From the NCBI RefSeq assembly GCF_003574835.2, contig NZ_CP063196.1, positions 4,402,001-4,466,000 of the forward strand: 64,000 nt of DNA, read 5' to 3'. The DNA is from Thermobifida halotolerans (GTDB taxonomy: Bacteria > Actinomycetota > Actinomycetes > Streptosporangiales > Streptosporangiaceae). The notes under the pieces are model-generated. The model saw only the letters and a program-made list of their open reading frames with translations, did not search any database and was not told the DNA's origin. Of this stretch, positions 29,857-39,022 are shown one piece after another (position 1 is the first letter of the stretch; every line of letters begins with the position of its first letter). The translations under genes and the position numbers were made by a program.

Positions 29857-29922
29857 CCGCCAAAGGTTGTCAGGTTCGGTGTGGATGATTGCAGGTGTCG
29901 CGAGTCCACAGGAGGAGTTCCC

Positions 29923-30735
29923 ATGTCCGCTCCCGATCGGCCGAACCAGCACACCGGCACGGTTGCCGGTGTTCCCTACGTGGCTCTGCCGCCCGAGGGC
30001 GGCACCGGGGCCGCACCCCTGATCGTCGTCTGGCACATGGTGGACGCGCCGCGTTCGGCCGAGGAGATGGCCGCCACGCTGCCGTTGACGGGGTCGGGCG
30101 CCTGGCGGGTGTTCGTGGACCTGCCACTGCACGGAGCGCGCACCCCCGACGACGTCGAGGCCGTCATGGGGGAGGCGCTCACCGATCCGCTGCTGAATCT
30201 GCACGTGCCGATCGTGCGACAGGCGGTACGGGAGTTTCCCGGGGTGGTGTCGGGGCTGCGCGAGGAACTGGGCGCCACGGGACCGCTCGGGCTGGTCGGC
30301 GGCTCGCTGGGCGGCGCGGTCGCGTTGACCGCGCTGGCCGAGACGGCGGTTCCGGTCACCGCGGTGGCGCTGGTCAATCCGGCGGTCACCGCGCGGAGCC
30401 TGGTCGCCGTCGCGGAACGCGAGTTCGGGATGGGCTATCCCTGGACGTCCGAGGCCGAGGAGGCCGCCGACCGGTGGGATTTCGTGGCCCGGGCCGCCGA
30501 GCTCGCCGACCGCGTCTCTCCTTCGGCGACGCTGCTGGTCAGTGGCGACCGCGACCACACCGAGTTCCGCCGTGACGCCGCCCTGCTGCGCGACGCTCTG
30601 GACGCCGCGTTCGTCACGGTTCCCGACCTGGCACACGCGCTGGTCGAGGAGTCGGACGCCGCCGTGGCCCCGCAGTCGCCGTATGCCAAGGTCGTGGACA
30701 CGGAGTTGGCCGCCTGGTTCGACGCCCGGCTCTGA
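29923..30735 (+). CDS. Alpha/beta hydrolase (esterase-like)
   Basis: 270 residues from ATG with an AGGAGG ribosome site. Alpha/beta-hydrolase core: oxyanion region VVWHMVDAPRS, nucleophile elbow GGSLGG (about Ser125), acid SGDRD, and late His in DLAHALVEE. No signal peptide. Substrate unknown; possibly a dienelactone-hydrolase or carboxylesterase relative. It converges with the flavoprotein cluster across a short gap. Confidence 0.82.
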   Translation: MSAPDRPNQHTGTVAGVPYVALPPEGGTGAAPLIVVWHMVDAPRSAEEMAATLPLTGSGAWRVFVDLPLHGARTPDDVEAVMGEALTDPLLNLHVPIVRQAVREFPGVVSGLREELGATGPLGLVGGSLGGAVALTALAETAVPVTAVALVNPAVTARSLVAVAEREFGMGYPWTSEAEEAADRWDFVARAAELADRVSPSATLLVSGDRDHTEFRRDAALLRDALDAAFVTVPDLAHALVEESDAAVAPQSPYAKVVDTELAAWFDARL

Positions 30736-30740
30736 ATCTC

Positions 30741-30756
30741 CCACGCAACCGCGTGG
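30741..30756. terminator. Short convergent hairpin
   Basis: CCACGC AACC GCGTGG between two converging stops. A 6-base-pair stem with a four-base loop; weak but well placed to serve both transcripts. Confidence 0.4.
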
Positions 30757-30768
30757 CGGGCTCTCCGG

Positions 30769-31995
30769 TCAGTCTCCGGCGGCCTCGGCGAGGAAGGCAC
30801 GGGTGGCCTTCTCGTCACCCAGCCAGCTCATCATGTCGGCGGGATCGTTGAAGCCCTCGATGTACCGGTCGGCCACGGCCTGACAGGTGTTGGCCGCCTC
30901 GTACACCTCGCGGACGTGTGGTTCCCCCATGCTGAGGATCATGATCAGGTCGCTGTAGAAGGGGCGGGCGAACTCCTCGAACCGGGCGAAGGTGGCGCGC
31001 ATGAAGTCCTCGTCGAAGGGACGGTCGCCGTGCTCCAGGATGGCCTTGAGGTAGATGTCGGCGCTGCGGCACTCGTTGTTGGCGTCCTGCCCGAAGCTGG
31101 GGGCGGTGACGATGAGGGTGTCGCCGATGCCCAGCACCCTGCCGCCCGACGGCAGCGTCGCCACCGGGTCCCGCACCAGCGGAACGGCGGGGTCCATGGC
31201 CACCGCCTTGGGATCGACGAGTTCGACGTCCTTGTACACCTCGTACAGGTGCGGCAGTGGCTCCCGCATCGCCTCCAGCATCAGGTCCAACTGCTGCCGG
31301 GGCCGCATCCGTGTCGGCCACGAGGCCATCGCGTCGGTGGTCGATCCGCCGATGCACAGCAGCCGGCAGGGGCCGTTGAGCGAGTAGCTGGGCAGACTGG
31401 TCAACTGGCCGACCCCCGGAATCCACCCACCGGACTGGATGTCGGTGTAGGGGTCGTCCTCGACCGCGGTGACGTAGGCGATCGACGCGAGGAAGCCGCT
31501 CATGCCGTACTGCGCCCACTCGTGGGTGACCGGGAACATCTCGGCCAGGCCGGACTGGCCCGCCGCGATGACGGTCAGGTCGTACATCGACACCAGGTAG
31601 TCCAGGTCGGAGGCGGTGACCGGATGGACGATCACCCGGCCGCCCATCCGCTCGAACAGGTCGAGCCACACCGACATCTTCACCCGCTCGTCCACCGACT
31701 GCGCGGGCCGTCTGAAGTAGCCGGTCCAGTTGTGGGCGGGACACCAGTCGCTCTCCTCGCCGGTGATCTGGCTGCCCCGGATGGAGGGAGCCCTGCCCTC
31801 CCACAGGTCCAGACCGTAGGCGCGCTCCAACTCCAGTTGGTCGCTGGTGAGCATCTGCACCGACACCGCACGACCGGAGGCGACCTCCGCGGCGGTGCGC
31901 GCGGTCATGATCGTGACGTCGTAGTCGTGCTGCAGCAGGCACAATCCGAGCTGCAGCCCCGACTGCCCCGCACCGACGATCAGAATCCTGCGCAT
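30769..31995 (-). CDS. Styrene/indole monooxygenase-like flavoprotein, copy 1
   Basis: 408 residues from the ATG at 31995 (GGAAGGAACAGG upstream). FAD-binding RILIVGAGQSGLQLGLCLL at the N-terminus, a second GQSG motif near residue 145, and the GDTLIVTAPSFGQDANN FAD-ribityl motif. It belongs to the group E monooxygenases (StyA-like) that need a separate flavin reductase (StyB), not found here. It is the last of three related copies transcribed with a conservon. Copy 2 is closely similar, including a 194-base identical block. Substrate unknown. Confidence 0.88.
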   Translation of the reverse strand: MRRILIVGAGQSGLQLGLCLLQHDYDVTIMTARTAAEVASGRAVSVQMLTSDQLELERAYGLDLWEGRAPSIRGSQITGEESDWCPAHNWTGYFRRPAQSVDERVKMSVWLDLFERMGGRVIVHPVTASDLDYLVSMYDLTVIAAGQSGLAEMFPVTHEWAQYGMSGFLASIAYVTAVEDDPYTDIQSGGWIPGVGQLTSLPSYSLNGPCRLLCIGGSTTDAMASWPTRMRPRQQLDLMLEAMREPLPHLYEVYKDVELVDPKAVAMDPAVPLVRDPVATLPSGGRVLGIGDTLIVTAPSFGQDANNECRSADIYLKAILEHGDRPFDEDFMRATFARFEEFARPFYSDLIMILSMGEPHVREVYEAANTCQAVADRYIEGFNDPADMMSWLGDEKATRAFLAEAAGD

Positions 31996-32038
31996 CCTGT
32001 TCCTTCCCGCGTGTCCAACCCAGTGTTTCGCGCTCCGG

Positions 32039-33271
32039 TCAGCCTCCGGCGACCTCGGCGAGGAAGGCACGGGCCGCCTTCTCGTCGCCGAACCAGCTCA
32101 TCATGTCGGCGGGATCGTTGAAGCCCTCGACGAACCGGTCGGCCACGGCCTGACAGGTGTTGGCCGCCTCGTACACCTCGCGAACGTGTGGCGGGATCGT
32201 GGTGATGAGGACGACCAGGTCGCTGTAGAAGGGGCGGGCGAAGGCGTCGAACTCGGCGAAGGTGGCGCGCATGAAGTCCTCGTCGAAGGGGCGGTCGCCG
32301 TGCTCCAGGATGGCCTTGAGGTAGATGTCGGCGCTGCGGCACTCGTTGTTGGCGTCCTGCCCGAAACCGGGGGACGAGACGATGAGGGTGTCGCCGATAC
32401 CCAGCACCCTGCCGCCCGACGGCAGCGTCGCCACCGGGTCCCGCACCAGCGGAACGGCGGGGTCCATGGCCACCGCCTTGGGATCGACGAGTTCGACGTC
32501 CTTGTACACCTCGTACAGGTGCGGCAGTGGCTCCCGCATCGCCTCCAGCATCAGGTCCAACTGCTGCCGGGGCCGCATCCGTGTCGGCCACGACAGCATG
32601 GCCATCCCGTCGACGACCGGGCCGTTGATGCTCAGCAGCCGGCAGGGGCCGTTGAGCGAGTAGCTGGGCGTGCTGAGCAGGTGTCCGACCCCGGGAATCC
32701 ACCCGCCCGTCTGGATGTCGGCGTAGGGGTCGTCCTCGACCGCGGTGACGTAGGCGATCGACGCGAGGAACCCCGGCATGCCCCGGCTGGTCCACTCGTG
32801 GGTGACCGGGAACATCTCGGCCAGGCCGGACTGGCCCGCCGCGATGACGGTCAGGTCGTACATCGACACCAGGTGGTCGAGATCGGAGGTGGTGACCGGA
32901 TGGACGATCACCCGGCCACCCATCCGCTCGAACAGGTCGAGCCACACCGACATCTTCACCCGCTCGTCCACCGACTGCGCGGGCCGCCGGTAGTAGCCCG
33001 TCCACTCGTAGGCCGGCCCGCCGTCGCTTCCGTCACTGCTCAACCGGCTGCCCCGGATGGGGGGCGCCTCGTTCTCCCACAGGTCCAGACCGTAGGCGCG
33101 CTCCAACTCCAGTTGGTCGCTGGTGAGCGTCTGCACCGACACCGCGCGTCCCGACGCGAGTTCGCCCGCGGTGCGCGCGGTCATGATCGTGACGTCGTAG
33201 TCGTGCTGCAGCAGGCACAGGGCGAGTTGCAGCCCCGACTGCCCGGCACCGACAATCAGAATCCTGCGCAT
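32039..33271 (-). CDS. Styrene/indole monooxygenase-like flavoprotein, copy 2
   Basis: 410 residues from the ATG at 33271 (AAGGGGGACAGG upstream; an in-frame GTG 21 bases earlier is possible). It has the same FAD motifs as copy 1 and most of its sequence. Differences cluster in residues about 70-90 and 215-235, which may form the substrate pocket. Tandem duplication followed by divergence at specificity sites is the simplest reading. It lies 43 bases before copy 1, in the same transcript. Confidence 0.88.
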   Translation of the reverse strand: MRRILIVGAGQSGLQLALCLLQHDYDVTIMTARTAGELASGRAVSVQTLTSDQLELERAYGLDLWENEAPPIRGSRLSSDGSDGGPAYEWTGYYRRPAQSVDERVKMSVWLDLFERMGGRVIVHPVTTSDLDHLVSMYDLTVIAAGQSGLAEMFPVTHEWTSRGMPGFLASIAYVTAVEDDPYADIQTGGWIPGVGHLLSTPSYSLNGPCRLLSINGPVVDGMAMLSWPTRMRPRQQLDLMLEAMREPLPHLYEVYKDVELVDPKAVAMDPAVPLVRDPVATLPSGGRVLGIGDTLIVSSPGFGQDANNECRSADIYLKAILEHGDRPFDEDFMRATFAEFDAFARPFYSDLVVLITTIPPHVREVYEAANTCQAVADRFVEGFNDPADMMSWFGDEKAARAFLAEVAGG

Positions 33272-33296
33272 CCTGTCCCCCTTGTTCGTCACCGGT

Positions 33297-33626
33297 TCAG
33301 CTTCCGGCGGCCTCGGCGAGGAAGGCCCCGGTCACCTTCTCGTCGCCGAACCAGCTCATCAGGTCGGCGGGGTCGTCGAAGCCTCGGGGGCCGTCATCAC
33401 GCGGACGGTGCCCCCGGAGCGGGGGCGCCTCGTTCTCCCACGGGTCCTGGCCGTGGGCGCACTCCCACTCCGGTTGGCCTCCCAGGGGGAACCGGACCGG
33501 TGCGGTGTGTCCGGACGCGGCCTCTCCCGTGGTGCGTTCGGTCATGACCGTGGCGTCGTCGTGTCGCGGCAGCTCCAGGGCCGACCGCATCCCCTGCCCG
33601 GCACCGACGATCGGAATCCCGCGCAT
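33297..33626 (-). pseudogene. Internally deleted third flavoprotein copy
   Basis: 109 residues, open from ATG to stop. Residues 1-75 match the N-terminus of copy 2 (IVGAGQ, WENEAPPLRG). The last about 26 residues match its C-terminus (DDPADLMSWFGDEK..AFLAEAAGS). About 300 central residues are missing in frame. The N-terminal half has many substitutions, so it is an old remnant. It cannot bind FAD normally. Either a pseudogene or a reduced protein kept for another role. Confidence 0.75.
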
Positions 33627-33642
33627 CCGTCTCCCGGAGACG

Positions 33643-34239
33643 TCACCGGCTCAGCGCCGGATCGGCGTCGAAGTTCATGGTGTACTCCACCAGTTTCGCC
33701 AGAACTCCCGCCGACTGCCGCCGGTCGCGGGCGTCGAACACGACGATGGGCACGTCGTCGTCGAGGGCGAGGGCGCTGCGGATGTCCTCGACCGGATGCA
33801 GGGGCACGCCCTCGAAGTGGTTGACCGCGATCAGGAACGGCAGATCGGTGTACTTCTCGAAGTAGTCGATGGCCTGGAAGGAGTCCTCCAGACGGCGGGT
33901 GTCGACGATGATGACCGCGCCGATCGCCCCGCGGGTCAGGTCCTCCCACATGAACCAGAACCGGGCCTGTCCCGGGGTGCCGAACAGGTAGAGGATCAGG
34001 TCGCGCGCGATGGTGATGCGACCGAAGTCCATGGCGACGGTGGTTGTCTGCTTGTCGGGGGTCTTGGAGAGATCGTCGTAGGCCACGCTGGCCTGGGTCA
34101 TGATCGCCTCGGTGTTGACCGGGGGGATCTCGGAGACCGAGCCGACCAGTGTCGTCTTGCCGACCCCGAAGCCGCCGGCCACGACGATCTTCGCCGACAC
34201 CTTCTTGGGGGCGCTACCCGGCGATGGCGTGAAGCCCAT
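33643..34239 (-). CDS. cvnD: Conservon small GTPase CvnD
   Basis: 198 residues from ATG 34239, overlapping the upstream gene by 26 bases, with GGAGAGGA upstream. P-loop GGFGVGKTTLVGS at residues about 21-33, DxxG-like LFGTPGQARF, and NHFE in place of NKxD. It is the MglA/Ras-like GTPase of the conservon (CvnD), thought to form a membrane-associated complex with CvnA-C analogous to G-protein receptors. Role is signalling; the output is unknown. Confidence 0.92.
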   Translation of the reverse strand: MGFTPSPGSAPKKVSAKIVVAGGFGVGKTTLVGSVSEIPPVNTEAIMTQASVAYDDLSKTPDKQTTTVAMDFGRITIARDLILYLFGTPGQARFWFMWEDLTRGAIGAVIIVDTRRLEDSFQAIDYFEKYTDLPFLIAVNHFEGVPLHPVEDIRSALALDDDVPIVVFDARDRRQSAGVLAKLVEYTMNFDADPALSR

Positions 34240-34579
34240 GAAGAATCCTCTCCAGGAGTTCGGTGTCCGCCTGCGAACCGCTGCCGACGGTGCGGTGGAT
34301 CTCCACCCTGCCCTGCTGGGCAAGGTCGCTGATGAGCACCCGTACCACACCGATGGGCAACTGGACCGACGTGGCGATCTCGGTGACCGACCGCGACTCG
34401 GTGCAGGCCAGGTAGATGTTCCGCTGCTCCGGCGTCATCCCGGCGAGACCGCCGGGGCCGGGATCCAACGCGGTGACGAGGGTCTCGAGCAGCAGGGGCA
34501 GGGAGGGTCGGGTCCGTCCCAGCGTCAGGGCGTAGGAACGGACCCGCCGACTCGCTCCCGGCGGTGGCGTGGGGATCAT
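34214..34579 (-). CDS. cvnC: Conservon DUF742 protein CvnC
   Basis: 121 residues. DUF742 winged-helix-like protein (RSYALTLGRTRPS .. ESRSVTEIATSVQLPIGVVRVLISDLAQQGRVEIHR). Together with CvnB and CvnD it makes the conserved actinobacterial conservon. It starts 38 bases after cvnB and overlaps cvnD. Confidence 0.92.
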   Translation of the reverse strand: MIPTPPPGASRRVRSYALTLGRTRPSLPLLLETLVTALDPGPGGLAGMTPEQRNIYLACTESRSVTEIATSVQLPIGVVRVLISDLAQQGRVEIHRTVGSGSQADTELLERILHGLHAIAG

Positions 34580-34617
34580 GCTGCGCGCCTTTCCCAGGTG
34601 GTCATCTTCGGCCGCCG

Positions 34618-35040
34618 TCAGTTGAGGATCGCTTCGCGGAGTTCACCGCGCAGTTTGGGGGTGAGCACGTGCCCGGTGTTCTCCACGAGCAGCGCCATCT
34701 GGTAGCCCACGATCTTCATGTCGCAGTCGCTGGCGGCCAGGACGGTCAGGCATGATCCGTCCCCGATGGAGGTCAGGAAGAGGTGGCCGCGTCGCATGCG
34801 GACGATGGTCTGCTCGAACTCACCCTGGTCGAACATGCGTGACGTGCCCTGGGCGAGGCTGAGCATCCCGCTGGCCACAGCGGCCAACTGCTCGGCCTCC
34901 TCGAACGGCAGTTGTTGGGAGCGCGCCAGCAGCAACCCGTCGGCCGAGACCACCGCGGCATGGTTCACGCCGGGAACGTCACGGACGAAGTTGTCGATGA
35001 CCCAGTTGAACTTCTCTACCTCAGAACGGGAATCGGTCAT
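34618..35040 (-). CDS. cvnB: Conservon roadblock/LC7 protein CvnB
   Basis: 140 residues. Roadblock/LC7 domain (NWVIDNFVRDVPGVNHAAVVSADGLLLARS, then SIGDGSCLTVLAASDCDMKIVGYQMALLVE). Roadblock proteins act as GTPase-activating or scaffolding partners of MglA-like GTPases. Its start overlaps the cvnA stop (ATGA), so translation is coupled. Confidence 0.93.
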   Translation of the reverse strand: MTDSRSEVEKFNWVIDNFVRDVPGVNHAAVVSADGLLLARSQQLPFEEAEQLAAVASGMLSLAQGTSRMFDQGEFEQTIVRMRRGHLFLTSIGDGSCLTVLAASDCDMKIVGYQMALLVENTGHVLTPKLRGELREAILN

Positions 35041-36458
35041 TTCTCCATCGCTCTTTCTGCACCTGAGGTGCGGTTCCCCTCACTCCTGGCGGCGATCTCC
35101 TGGGCTGCCTCCGACTGTCCGCTGAGGAGCCCGTCCAGATCGGCGCGAATGCGTTCGGCGAAACCTGGTGGCTGACCCGCGTAGGGTTCGGGGGCGGCTT
35201 TCTGGGGATGCCTGCCGTGCACCGGCACCGTCTCCTCCGCTTCGTCCCCACGGTGGCGCGGGGGGTCCGCGGTGCGACGGCGTTGGGGGAGTTCCCACAG
35301 TTCGCCGCTGTTGGCGGTGGGTGCGGTGGATGGTTCCGGTCTGTCCCTCTGGGGCTTGGGCGGTCTGGTGTCGGCGGCCGCCCTGCGGTTTCGTTTGGAC
35401 TCGCGGCGGGGCAGTCCGTTCGGTCCTTTCTGTGTGGTGGACGGAAGGCTGGGGCGGGGACCACGCTGACCGATGGGTGGGAGGGGCGATACTTCGGCCG
35501 GGGGGCGCACGGGTCGGGGAACGGCCGACGTCGTGGTGACCAGCGTGGCGGGAACGTGGACGTAGGCGGTGGTACCGCTGAAGGGGCGGGTCTGCAGTTG
35601 CACGTTGACGCCCTGGCGGGCGGCGAGTCTGCTGACGACGTAGAGGCCCATGTGCCGGATGACGTCCTCGCTCAGCTGTGGCGGGGTGGCGAGCCACTGG
35701 TTGAGCTGGTCCAGGCGGTCCTGCGGAATGCCGATTCCGTCGTCGATGACCTCGAGCAGGAGTGCTCCGTCCTCACTCATTCGCCCCCGGACGGAAACGG
35801 GAAGGTTGGCGGACGAGTAGGCGGTGGCGTTGTCCAGCAGTTCGGCGACGAGGTGGCTGAGGTCGTCGGCGGCTTCGGGAGAGATCGCCACGTCCTGGGG
35901 CAGTTCCTGGGAGCGGACCCGGGTGTACTCGCTGACCTCGGACATCGCGGCGCGGACGACGTCGAGCAGCATGACCGGTTCGGCGTGCTTGTTCTGTCCT
36001 CCGTGGCCCGCGAGGATCAGCAGGTTCTCACCGTTGCGCCGCATGCGGGTGGCGAGGTGGTCGATCTGGAACAGCACTTCGAGCTGTTCGGGGTCCTCTT
36101 CCTGGCGCTCGAGGCGTTCGACGAAGGCCAGCAGCGAGTCGACGAGCGTGAGATCGCGCATCGCCAGGGACGCCAGCGCGGTGGGCAGCAGGTTCTGGGG
36201 ATCCTCCCCGGACGACTGCTGGGCGGCGGACCCGGGTCCGCTCCGCGGTTCGGCCGGAGCGGGCTCCTGCGTGGCCGAGGGGTCCGGGAAAACCCGTGTG
36301 TCGGGAGTTGCCGGGGGAGCTTCGGGGTGCGGCCGGGCTCCTGTCAGCCTGCGCCACCAGGACCTGAGACGTGCCTGGTTCCGGCTGCCCTCCTCAGCGC
36401 TCCTGGGCGAGGTTCCCGGCGGGTATGCGTCTCCTCCGTCGGAGGGTTGACCTGTCAC
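35037..36458 (-). CDS. cvnA: Conservon sensor kinase-like protein CvnA, cytoplasmic form
   Basis: 473 residues. A histidine-kinase core lies at about 110-310, with DHp segment FQIDHLATRMRRNGENLLIL, N box ELLDNATAYSS, G1 box VIDDGIGIP and G2 GLYVVSRLA. The N-terminus (about 1-85) is Pro/Ser-rich and the C-terminus (310-473) is a long basic, Pro-rich tail. Many CvnA proteins have an N-terminal membrane sensor; none is visible here, so the signal must arrive from a cytoplasmic partner. First gene of the conservon transcript that runs into the flavoproteins. Confidence 0.9.
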   Translation of the reverse strand: MTGQPSDGGDAYPPGTSPRSAEEGSRNQARLRSWWRRLTGARPHPEAPPATPDTRVFPDPSATQEPAPAEPRSGPGSAAQQSSGEDPQNLLPTALASLAMRDLTLVDSLLAFVERLERQEEDPEQLEVLFQIDHLATRMRRNGENLLILAGHGGQNKHAEPVMLLDVVRAAMSEVSEYTRVRSQELPQDVAISPEAADDLSHLVAELLDNATAYSSANLPVSVRGRMSEDGALLLEVIDDGIGIPQDRLDQLNQWLATPPQLSEDVIRHMGLYVVSRLAARQGVNVQLQTRPFSGTTAYVHVPATLVTTTSAVPRPVRPPAEVSPLPPIGQRGPRPSLPSTTQKGPNGLPRRESKRNRRAAADTRPPKPQRDRPEPSTAPTANSGELWELPQRRRTADPPRHRGDEAEETVPVHGRHPQKAAPEPYAGQPPGFAERIRADLDGLLSGQSEAAQEIAARSEGNRTSGAERAMEK

Positions 36459-37157
36459 GCCATCCCCTTACGCTCAGTGACACCACTTAGGTTCATCCAA
36501 CCTTCCGGTCATCCTCTGCTTCTCAATGGAGACCCATTGTGCGGAAACGGGGCTACCGTGGGAAACAGGATGATGGGTGACCCTAGCAGGACTGATGGGA
36601 TTTTTTCGAGAGCTGGTCGGGGAGCTTTCACCACGCGGGCCCTCCGGAGACGCCACCTCAGGAACCGAGATAACCCCAGTTCAGAGAGATGTTTTCAATT
36701 TATTCCGCAGTACGGAAAAGATATTCCATTTCTTGAATAGTCACGCTTCGTAACAAGAATCGCCCCGCCCTCCTGCCGCGCTCCTTCGAGAGCCCCGGAG
36801 GACGACCAGGACAGCGCACTCCCTCGCCTCACGTGATGGAGATCATCCTCAGGAAATGTCTTTCCAGCAAGAGGAGCCGGCACCCCGGTTCTCCCGCTCC
36901 ACAGGTTCACAGCCTCAGCGATACTTCTTACTGGGAAGATCACAGAGCGCAAGGGCACAATAGGGAGAACACTGGTCAGTAACTCGTCTCGGTTCTCCAC
37001 GCCCGCTCATAGGAGCGCTCCCAGAACCGGCTCGCCCCTCCGCGACCACGGGACTCCAACCCCTGTCCCGACATGCCACGGCGCAGGCGCATCCCGGACA
37101 CGCGGCGCGGACCAAGGGGGGCATCCGCGATCCTGACCCCGCGATCCCGCGGGGCCC
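36459..37157. other. Intergenic region between cvnA and cca
   Basis: About 700 bases with lower GC, particularly 36690-36760, which holds TTCCG-CAGTA-CGGAA (36703-36717). It should contain the conservon promoter. A 101-codon minus-strand frame (36695-37000, GTG start, containing TTA) reads as a soluble protein of unknown family with weak support; I do not call it a gene. No tRNA or known riboswitch seen. Confidence 0.45.
37137..37154 (-). terminator. Short hairpin after cca
   Basis: CCCCGCG ATCC CGCGGGG: a 7-base-pair stem beginning four bases beyond the cca stop. No T-tract. Confidence 0.45.
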
Positions 37158-38642
37158 TCACTCCCGCTCGGCCGCCCAGCGGCGCAGCGCCTCGGCCGCG
37201 GCCTCCTTGCCCATGGGACCGTTCTCCAGGCGCAACTCCAGAAGAAACCGCCACGCCTGCCCGACGAGCGGTCCCGGACCGATCTCCAGGACCTCCTGGA
37301 TCTCGTTGCCGTCGAGATCCGGACGGATCCTGGACAGCTCCTCCTCCTGCGCCAGCCGCTCGATACGCCGCTCGATGTCGTCGTAGGCGCGGGCCAACGC
37401 CGCGGCCTTGCGCCGGTTGCGCGTGGTGCAGTCGGCACGGGTCAGGATGTGCAACCGCGACAGCAGCGGACCGGCGTCGCGCGCATAGCGGCGCACCGCG
37501 GAGTCGGTCCACTCGCCCCTGCCATAACCGTGGAACCGGAGGTGCAGGGAGACCAGCTTGCTGACGTCGTTGACGACGTCCTTGGGGAAACGCAACGCGC
37601 TCAACCGGTTCCTGCTCATCGACGCGCCCACCACCTCGTGGTGGTGGAAGGTCACCTTGCCTCCCGGCTCGAAGGAACGGGTCTTGGGCTTGCCGATGTC
37701 GTGCAGCAGCGCGGCCAGCCGCAACACCAGATCGGGTTCCATGCCGCGAGCCCGCTCCAGGTCGACGGCCTGGTCGAGCACGGTCAGGGAATGTTCGTAG
37801 ACATCCTTGTGCCGGTGGTGCTCGTCAACGGTCAGCTTCAGCTTCGGGATCTCGGGGAGCACGTACTCGGCCACCCCCAGGTCCGTCATCAGAGCCACAC
37901 CGACCCGCGGATTCGGACTCAGCATCAACTTGGCGAGTTCGTCGCGGACACGTTCGGCCGAGACGATCCGCAGCCTCTCCGCCATCGCGGCCGCGGCGGC
38001 GCGCACCCCCTCGTCCAGGGTGAATCCCAACTGCGCCGCGAACCGCACCCCGCGCATGATCCGCAGGGGATCGTCGTTGAACGAGTCCTCGGGCCTCCCC
38101 GGCGTGCGCAACCTGCGGTCGGCCAGATCCGCCAGACCTCCGAACGGGTCCACGAACTCGCCGCCGGGCAGCCGCACCGCCATGGCATTGACCGTGAAGT
38201 CGCGACGAACGAGGTCCCCGTACAGCGAGTCGCCGTAGCTGACCTCCGGTTTACGCGACTTGACCTGGTACGACTCGCTCCGGTAGGTGGTGATCTCAAC
38301 CTGCTGCCCGTTCTTGCGCAGCCCCACCGTGCCGAATTCGATCCCGATCGTCCACACCGCGTCGGCCCAGCCGTCGACCAACTCCAGGACGCGCTGCGGA
38401 ACCGCGTCGGTGGTCAGGTCGATGTCGTGCACCGCACGCCCCAGCATCGCGTCACGGACGGGACCGCCGACGATCGCCAGTTCGTGCCCCGCCGCGGCGA
38501 ACCGCTCACCCAGTTCGGCCACGACCGAGCCGACAGAACGCAACAGGGAGGCCACCGCGGACCGCTGCTCGTCCGTCAGCGTGACCTCGGCGGTCTGGGA
38601 CTCAGGGGTTCGATCCGGAAGCGCACTGTTCGACACAGGCAC
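37158..38642 (-). CDS. cca: CCA tRNA nucleotidyltransferase
   Basis: 494 residues from the GTG at 38642, with no ribosome site and a TAGTCT hexamer just upstream, suggesting a leaderless message; a GTG at 38690 is possible. Class II nucleotidyltransferase motif IVGGPVRDAMLGR, catalytic carboxylates DIDLTTDA, RRDFTVNAMA, then an HD domain (LLHDIGKPKTR) as usual in actinobacteria. It adds or repairs the 3' CCA of tRNAs. It diverges from the DUF6049-murJ cluster. Confidence 0.93.
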   Translation of the reverse strand: MPVSNSALPDRTPESQTAEVTLTDEQRSAVASLLRSVGSVVAELGERFAAAGHELAIVGGPVRDAMLGRAVHDIDLTTDAVPQRVLELVDGWADAVWTIGIEFGTVGLRKNGQQVEITTYRSESYQVKSRKPEVSYGDSLYGDLVRRDFTVNAMAVRLPGGEFVDPFGGLADLADRRLRTPGRPEDSFNDDPLRIMRGVRFAAQLGFTLDEGVRAAAAAMAERLRIVSAERVRDELAKLMLSPNPRVGVALMTDLGVAEYVLPEIPKLKLTVDEHHRHKDVYEHSLTVLDQAVDLERARGMEPDLVLRLAALLHDIGKPKTRSFEPGGKVTFHHHEVVGASMSRNRLSALRFPKDVVNDVSKLVSLHLRFHGYGRGEWTDSAVRRYARDAGPLLSRLHILTRADCTTRNRRKAAALARAYDDIERRIERLAQEEELSRIRPDLDGNEIQEVLEIGPGPLVGQAWRFLLELRLENGPMGKEAAAEALRRWAAERE

Positions 38643-39022
38643 AGAGACTAGGTGGCACACTCCACCATGGCGAATCGACCGCGCTTCCACTGCGGGGACG
38701 GCGGCACGGCATCCCCGTCACCTTCGGCGCCCGCGAAGTGGACCGGCCCGCCCAGCAACGCGGCCGCCCCCCTTCCGGTCCTGTCCGTCTTCTCTCATCC
38801 GCCGTCCCGGAAAAGTTCAACGGGTATCGTCGTTTCGGACGGGACGCGTTCTCCGACCGCGCCTGTTCTTCCTCCACGGCCGTCCGTGACGGTCGACGGA
38901 GAACGTCCCCATCGGGCTCTGTCCCGTGGTTTATCGCGACCGTTCGGGGACTCTTCTATTCTGTGGAGCCACCCGTGCGGCGACTCCAGCCGACCGTCCA
39001 ACGATTCGGAAGAACCAGAGGC

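Follow-up and report, generated by a model that had tools for sequence, protein, structure and literature searches.

Conservons, also called actinobacterial G protein systems and represented in Streptomyces coelicolor by cvn1-13, are the closest described relatives of the locus considered here, which lies in a 64,000-nucleotide stretch of the Thermobifida halotolerans genome (assembly GCF_003574835.2, contig NZ_CP063196.1, positions 4,402,001 to 4,466,000; hereafter, the window) and in which cvnA-B-C-D are followed by two full-length genes, smo1 and smo2, for flavoproteins related to styrene monooxygenases (SMO) and indole monooxygenases (IMO). We draw on parts of each of the papers cited. The fifth gene of a conservon typically encodes a P450 (CvnE) or a GAF protein (CvnF), both of which accompany sensor-less CvnA kinases; CvnF8 purifies together with CvnA8 and stimulates its ATPase activity and autophosphorylation (PMC13343842, the most recent paper found on these systems). 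Signal reception by conservon kinases is described there as largely unexplored, and the activities of CvnB, CvnC and CvnD as GTPase-activating protein, guanine nucleotide exchange factor and GTPase are known for mycobacterial homologues, as cited in the same paper. CvnA7-13 of S. coelicolor keep two close transmembrane (TM) helices (PMC8510531). The product of the mycobacterial fifth gene, the pentapeptide protein MfpA (PMC9769811), works with the GTPase on DNA gyrase (PMC4316618), and conservons are also found upstream of prenyl-indole clusters, there with a different flavoenzyme of the flavin-containing monooxygenase (FMO) type (PMC3617294).

The window locus shares with the S. coelicolor conservons the gene order, the HATPase_c, Robl_LC7, DUF742 and small GTPase products and the C-terminal LPxR motif of CvnA, and differs from them in a CvnA without predicted TM segment and in a flavoprotein as the fifth gene product. 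As with CvnE and CvnF, the accessory gene lies directly 3' of cvnD on the same strand, and the partner CvnA has no NIT domain in the window and in the other operons scanned outside the Streptomycetaceae; unlike CvnE and CvnF, the flavoprotein belongs to an unrelated family (neither P450 nor GAF), is sometimes encoded in tandem and also accompanies NIT-bearing CvnA in the Streptomycetaceae. The mycobacterial mfp conservon likewise has a fifth, non-core gene behind the GTPase gene, although its product is the gyrase-directed pentapeptide protein mentioned above. The best reading is that the flavoprotein represents a third accessory class beside P450 and GAF. No published flavoprotein accessory class for conservons was found in the open-licence literature searched, and the main text of PMC13343842, supplements aside, contains no words beginning with monooxygenase, flavin or oxidoreductase. 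The original prediction, made from the letters of the window, had set the flavoproteins in the place of the P450 that ends some conservons and had called the system the window's best candidate for an incompletely described one; the comparison is apt, and the latter judgement agrees with the naming of the fifth gene as P450 or GAF only in the parts of PMC13343842 used here.

Recurrence and lineage pairing with conservon genes

For an unselected survey, 120 genomes of the family were screened for PF17885; 61 were positive, and the flanks of the matches were fetched. Among the 145 genes counted (genes below 250 bits excluded, and one of the three L041 copies dropped by an overlap filter), 52 stand directly behind a strong cvnD and 7 follow another such gene as tandem copies, 6 of these in conservons and one, at L047, behind a flavoprotein gene without a conservon. 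A further 3 have cvnC but no cvnD, 7 a weak or fused CvnD-like protein, 3 a roadblock gene only and 1 a conservon nearby, while 72 have no conservon gene beside them. The loci L007-L036 were taken with 1.5 kb flanks, and 8 conservon-type and 2 free-standing ones were refetched larger; 21 of the 72 free-standing genes were thus viewed with 1.5 kb flanks only, and the two refetched at 14 kb still lack a conservon.

The named-genome set was found with an alignment of conservon flavoproteins and is therefore biased towards the type; 69 of its 79 loci have cvnD immediately before the flavoprotein gene, including those of Pseudonocardiaceae, Actinopolyspora, Frankiaceae, Micromonospora, Nocardiopsidaceae, Kitasatospora and Streptantibioticus. 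In a class-wide sample searched with alignment A4, 79 of 345 genomes, in 24 of 126 genera, have a match at E 1e-60 or better, free-standing relatives included, and all 30 of the best-scoring loci fetched have cvnD directly upstream. A phylum sample yielded PF17885 in 18 of 296 genomes; cvnD is upstream in 10 of the 22 loci fetched and absent within 1.5 kb in 12, and the 10 linked loci are all in genomes coded f3/g70 (10 of the 11 sites there), which are probably Streptomycetaceae, as their CvnB-C-D group with those of Kitasatospora and Streptantibioticus. All of cvnA, B and C were recognised upstream in 42 of 51 family, 60 of 69 named and 10 of 10 f3 loci, several of the shortfalls being contig ends. 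In the 69 named loci the flavoprotein gene follows cvnD at a small distance (median 24 bp, quartiles -8 to 51, largest 326), so that there is little space for separate promoters. From the 8 strong DUF742 matches of the T. halotolerans genome (12 in all), we estimate the chance of a random gene lying directly behind a cvnD at about 1 in 600. A further conserved pathway gene was sought around the 69 named loci and none is widely shared; the most widespread other neighbour family reaches 11 loci in 6 genera, where it varies in side and direction. Judged by gene order, one conservon lineage regularly carries the flavoprotein as its fifth gene, and does so across many actinobacterial genera. The neighbourhood survey of SMO-like genes that had been suggested at the outset accordingly finds the flavoprotein behind cvnD in many genera, and the proposed link has largely survived the two doubts raised with it: the gene sets do co-occur, in those many genera, whereas the question of separate promoters is judged from the small gaps.

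The flavoprotein lineages also pair with those of CvnD. Among 51 operons, of which 20 in 9 genomes holding two or three such operons could be swapped, the flavoprotein and CvnD lineages within genomes correlate with an r of 0.789 vs 0.330 (standard deviation 0.099) after swapping, and 0 of 2000 swaps reach as high a value. The pairing of flavoprotein with CvnA gives an r of 0.847, which equals the highest of its shuffles, with 26 of 2000 tying because only 13 units in 6 genomes are swappable. A CvnB+C+D tree, made with a quick method and a midpoint root from 125 of 151 conservons (26 dropped at random), places 84 flavoprotein operons and 7 soluble flavoprotein-less ones on one side (Shimodaira-Hasegawa-like approximate likelihood ratio test, SH-aLRT, 90) and 34 others on the opposite side, the Streptomycetaceae branching first on the flavoprotein side; L284, L287, L289 and L196 are labelled 'sol' in it by a trimming artefact, TM segments being present in them. 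Because the 7 soluble conservons without the gene fall on the flavoprotein side, their state reads as later loss. In the simplest history, a membrane-type conservon would have gained the flavoprotein once and later lost its membrane sensor, the flavoprotein being lost again several times, a direction that is our own reading of a tree whose root was not inferred. The flavoprotein gene tree was made from 190 of 247 genes by a quick method, with a simpler model, and gave several long-branch warnings. It unites the conservon-linked genes in a single clade at an SH-aLRT of 89, under the threshold of 95; 46 of 75 free-standing genes are nested in it, which reads as escape from the operon, and 29 lie outside, IMO-type genes among them. 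Residue covariation over 110 operons distributes the top 200 flavoprotein pairs as 96, 43, 42 and 19 for CvnA, B, C and D, vs 77, 38, 32 and 53 expected; these couplings lean to CvnA and CvnB and not to CvnD, and at an effective number of 20.4 we do not use them as a main argument.

The partner kinase and the flavoprotein family

The CvnA of the window has no TM segment by hydropathy and no NIT or HAMP match, and its C-terminal LPxR motif reads GLPRR, as in the A2 consensus. By the same hydropathy measure, a TM segment N-terminal of the kinase core is absent from 37 of 37 family and 60 of 62 named flavoprotein-linked CvnA, whereas 34 of 41 conservons without flavoprotein (40 from seven family genomes, plus L066) have one or more N-terminal TM segments. 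Three of the 62 named CvnA repeat genomes of the family set. The 37 do not include L130, in which the CvnA frame is broken, and the hydropathy matches of L104, L105, L111 and L112, which lie inside the matched kinase region, were not scored as N-terminal. As length and codon-position GC were used to call open reading frames (ORFs), CvnA N-termini are often too long. Pfam finds HATPase_c in all 50 flavoprotein-linked CvnA scanned (the 37 of the family and 13 of the 62 named), NIT in 1 and HAMP in 0, vs 25 and 14 of the 41 without flavoprotein. Outside the Streptomycetaceae, the partner CvnA in view is thus predicted to have no membrane part and no sensor domain. The converse, that a soluble CvnA always has an accessory gene, was rejected, as 7 soluble CvnA have no flavoprotein gene next to cvnD. 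The ORFs downstream of these (L066 outside the scan) give Pfam matches to thioesterase, lactonase and ABC transporter families and none to P450: a thioesterase stands behind L172 and L194 and a seven-bladed lactonase behind L172, L181 and L194, while the downstream ORFs of L167 and L193 have no Pfam match.

The flavoproteins themselves carry the Smoa_sbd domain, with a weak DAO match below its cut-off. An AlphaFold model of smo1, built with 62 sequences and with one codon before ATG 33271, has a mean predicted local distance difference test score (pLDDT) of 94.7 and a predicted template modelling score (pTM) of 0.93. It superposes over its full length on the indole monooxygenases of Acinetobacter (9lrq) and Variovorax (VpIndA1; 7z94, 7z4x) with template modelling scores of 0.91-0.93 and 31-35% identity in the structural alignment, against 0.87 for the styrene monooxygenase StyA (3ihm), and the sequence search also ranks indole above styrene monooxygenases. 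With StyA the copies share Smoa_sbd and full-length matches to the NCBIfam StyA model, of 134.5 and 134.8 bits, which are far under the equivalog cut-off of 550. Published fingerprints are N46-V48-H50-Y73-H76-S96 for SMO and S46-Q48-M50-V/I73-I76-A96 for IMO (PMC13101512). The SMO fingerprint is absent, positions 46-76 of the window clade reading mostly S-Q-L-I-S, and a styrene monooxygenase proper was rejected on the StyA cut-off, this fingerprint and the fold ranking. Nor do the six genes of the window clade carry the full IMO set of S-Q-M-V/I-I at those positions: S46 is found in 6 and Q48 in 5, position 50 is L or I, 73 is I or V, and 76 is S in 6. Nearly all free-standing genes of the L007 type have all five IMO residues at positions 46-76, and most conservon members nearly so, with position 76 differing.

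The flavin adenine dinucleotide (FAD) motifs GxGxxG and GxxD, shared with the indole monooxygenases, are almost invariant in all groups. In enzymes like p-hydroxybenzoate hydroxylase, a loop of the DPxxGQGxN type touches the flavin ring. This loop follows GxxD in 24 free-standing IMO-type genes and in the other conservon members (of 130, D is found in 129, P and Q in all, the first G in 120 and the second G in 127), and is mixed in the polyketide-linked flavoproteins (second G in 17 of 21). In the branch of the window the loop is replaced. All 23 genes of this branch lack the Asp and have D, N or E in place of the second Gly; 6 belong to the window clade, 6 to its sister clade of conservon genes and 11 to a sister set that does not adjoin cvnD. 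The last includes L044-L048, L051, L052, L057, L058 and L066, the latter with a flavoprotein-less conservon about 3 kb from the flavoprotein gene, on the other strand. A further difference from the indole monooxygenases is that no reductase gene is nearby. The earlier label of styrene-monooxygenase-like enzymes holds for the Smoa_sbd domain, while sequence, fold and fingerprint are closer to indole monooxygenases; its companion idea of a coupled oxidative enzyme fares worse, as nothing in these data supports an oxidative reaction: the window's branch has lost the flavin-side signature that nearly all other conservon members keep, and no reductase is close by.

Role of the flavoprotein

We tentatively propose that this group E indole-monooxygenase-like flavoprotein is a third conservon accessory class that serves as an input to, or modulator of, CvnA. 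In the cytosol it would bind FAD, possibly with a small aromatic ligand as well, dock on CvnA and set its autophosphorylation, by analogy with CvnF8 and CvnA8; CvnB and CvnC would then relay the signal to CvnD and its GTP state. Because the flavin-side loop is altered in the Thermobifida branch, the protein there would more probably be a redox or ligand sensor than a turning-over monooxygenase. Since the kinase has no membrane sensor in most of the flavoprotein operons examined, the flavoprotein could well serve as a cytosolic sensor or as a GTPase-controlled output, of which we consider the input of CvnA more likely than the output of CvnD. A third and common accessory class, mostly tied to a kinase without membrane part, would offer a concrete purified-protein handle on the input step of conservons, and many actinobacterial genes annotated as styrene or indole monooxygenase may be signalling parts.

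Several observations weigh against an input role. The Streptomycetaceae CvnA keep their N-terminal TM in 12 of 12 cases in view, with the flavoprotein present too (two segments in 11, one in L283; Streptantibioticus two, Kitasatospora one), those of the f3 operons having segments about 300-330 amino acids (aa) apart in 10 of 10, and NIT is found in 8 of the 9 Streptomycetaceae flavoprotein-linked CvnA scanned, which led us to reject the rule that the flavoprotein occurs only with a sensor-less CvnA. In 7 of 51 family loci and 1 of 69 named ones, cvnD and the flavoprotein gene are present while none of cvnA, B and C is recognised, with at least 4.7 kb of upstream sequence viewed. These pairs suggest the GTPase, rather than the kinase, as the partner, and they also dispose of the notion that the flavoprotein always accompanies the complete core. 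Enzyme-like motifs persist in most conservon flavoproteins, with a near-IMO S46-Q48-M50; MfpA, the mycobacterial fifth gene product, acts on the side of the GTPase (PMC4316618); and 72 of 145 family genes stand free of conservons, and some adjoin polyketide genes. The accessory gene is seen in the Streptomycetaceae next to a CvnA that bears a sensor, and in other loci in a minimal pair with cvnD.

Most of these points speak for a different role, that of pathway output, in which the flavoprotein would oxidise or bind something, with its activity or its location under the control of CvnD or the CvnB/C/D complex. It fits the minimal pairs, the position of the gene behind cvnD, the MfpA precedent, the combination with a membrane sensor in the Streptomycetaceae and the near-IMO residues of most members, and we hold it to be a real possibility. 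It would leave the link to sensor-less CvnA outside the Streptomycetaceae without obvious reason, however, and is at odds with L069, L139 and L140, which keep cvnC and the flavoprotein but no cvnD (two of the three also have cvnB), with the lack of a recurrent pathway partner or nearby reductase, and with the loop lost in all genes of the window's branch. The finding of the cvnD-flavoprotein-only loci lowered our confidence in an input role from evenly balanced to somewhat short of that, and raised that in an output role from rather doubtful to its present standing. Were the flavoprotein instead, as first suggested, an enzyme that makes or destroys the small-molecule signal of the pathway, its predicted indole-monooxygenase fold would be accounted for, the 6 PF01613 matches elsewhere in the genome could supply reduced FAD (FADH2) in trans, and tandem copies in several genera would fit different substrates; we regard this as unlikely in view of the missing reductase gene nearby, the changed flavin loop of the window's branch and fingerprint positions that vary by branch and so imply no single signal. 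That a metabolic flavoprotein gene is merely co-transcribed with the conservon, with no functional link, would suit the free-standing genes, but seems very improbable given the recurrence across genera, the lineage pairing, the scarcity of other shared neighbours and a gene tree in which the conservon-linked genes form one clade and the nested free-standing ones read as operon escape.

Returning to an input role, a more detailed scenario, to which we attach rather little confidence, is that a monooxygenase was captured by a conservon and turned into a cytosolic sensor: a membrane-type ancestor, of a form that the Streptomycetaceae still show, would first have gained the flavoprotein and then lost its membrane sensor, so that kinase, flavoprotein and GTPase made up an entirely cytosolic pathway, and the Nocardiopsis/Thermobifida branch would then have lost the loop that supports oxygenation and become a flavin-based redox or indole sensor.

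Operon anatomy and related loci

The operon occupies 36458-30769 on the minus strand, with cvnA-B-C-D, a flavoprotein gene remnant, smo1 and smo2 all in one direction (Table 1). Pfam domains and junctions bear out the predicted arrangement of the four core genes, in order, in one direction and with small gaps: A and B overlap by 4 bp, B and C are separated by 38 bp, C and D overlap by 26 bp if cvnD starts at ATG 34239, and cvnD is 16 bp from the next ORF. That start is the likely one from the sequence and from a 597-nt orthologue in L043, the longest ORF starting at 34350. For smo1 the start was taken as ATG 33271, the longest ORF beginning at GTG 33292, and for smo2 as ATG 31995, the longest ORF beginning at 32070. 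Smo2 is the last gene of the operon; the next gene, at 29881-30735 on the plus strand, is convergent. Upstream, about 700 bp off, lies a CCA-adding-type tRNA nucleotidyltransferase gene (37158-38690, minus strand; Pfam PolyA_pol/HD).

Table 1. Features of the flavoprotein-bearing conservon, in the order of transcription
Feature	Positions	Strand	Description
Leader between tRNA nucleotidyltransferase gene and cvnA	36459..37157	-	Sequence; main stretch with promoter room
cvnA	35037..36458	-	Histidine-kinase-like, 473 aa; HATPase_c 52 bits; C-terminal LPRR
cvnB	34618..35040	-	Roadblock/LC7 protein, 140 aa; Robl_LC7 92.1 bits
cvnC	34214..34579	-	DUF742 protein, 121 aa; DUF742 107.8 bits
cvnD	33643..34239	-	Small GTPase, 198 aa; ATP_bind_1 107.8 bits
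Group E flavoprotein gene remnant	33297..33626	-	109 aa; end pieces kept, middle lost
smo1	32039..33271	-	Full-length indole-monooxygenase-like flavoprotein, ~410 aa; Smoa_sbd (PF17885) 40.9 bits
smo2	30769..31995	-	Full-length tandem copy, ~408 aa; Smoa_sbd (PF17885) 44.0 bits

A 101-aa ORF inside the leader (36695-37000) has no Pfam match. A sigma-70 consensus scan of 30300-37400, which does not cover other sigma factors, found no site, and the promoter was not located. A terminator scan within the operon gave 4 terminator-like sites vs 2.1 expected, one of them a weak 5-bp stem inside cvnD on the coding strand; a separate promoter or terminator within the operon was rejected on these two scans. 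The three related FAD monooxygenase copies of the original prediction come down to two full-length genes, the third being the remnant, so that three intact copies were rejected. The remnant has no Pfam match and aligns to the other copies only at its ends, in blocks within columns 3-245 and 1142-1231 of 1257; it is in frame, with about 900 nt of the middle gone. Three full-length copies stand behind cvnD in one same-genus genome (G001) and one in another (G002). The smo1 and smo2 proteins are 87% identical and their DNA 90.4%; the identity (window 30769-33292) is patchy, from 73% to 100% per 100 columns with one block fully identical, which suggests gene conversion between them. The absence of a flavin reductase beside the operon, which had been predicted as well, holds: none of the genome's 6 PF01613 matches is inside the window, and the closest is about 0.96 Mb away.

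The cvnD-flavoprotein loci vary in their surroundings. At L110, L120 and L298 the pair stands directly behind genes of the CO-dehydrogenase large-subunit type and CoxG, at L108 and L294 it is near genes for NB-ARC/TPR proteins, and the others are L297 and L065, the latter with a weak DUF742-like gene upstream. An MpaB/Lcp-type oxygenase, methyltransferase or CbiX-like protein is encoded directly behind cvnD at L169, L171, L173 and L177, and the fifth-gene repertoire may for this reason be wider than published. Flavoprotein relatives beside polyketide synthase modules and/or methyltransferase genes are found at L037 and L039, both in the T. halotolerans genome (about C1:2.21 Mb and 1.70 Mb), and at L068 and L092. 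Such loci sometimes keep conservon leftovers, a roadblock gene or a fused DUF742/P-loop protein, and look like conservon pieces reused in biosynthetic clusters. Near the polyketide-linked flavoprotein of L039, a 225-aa protein (L039:3421-4098) gives a weak match of the ATLF metallopeptidase type, at 25.0 bits, below the cut-off of 27.4.

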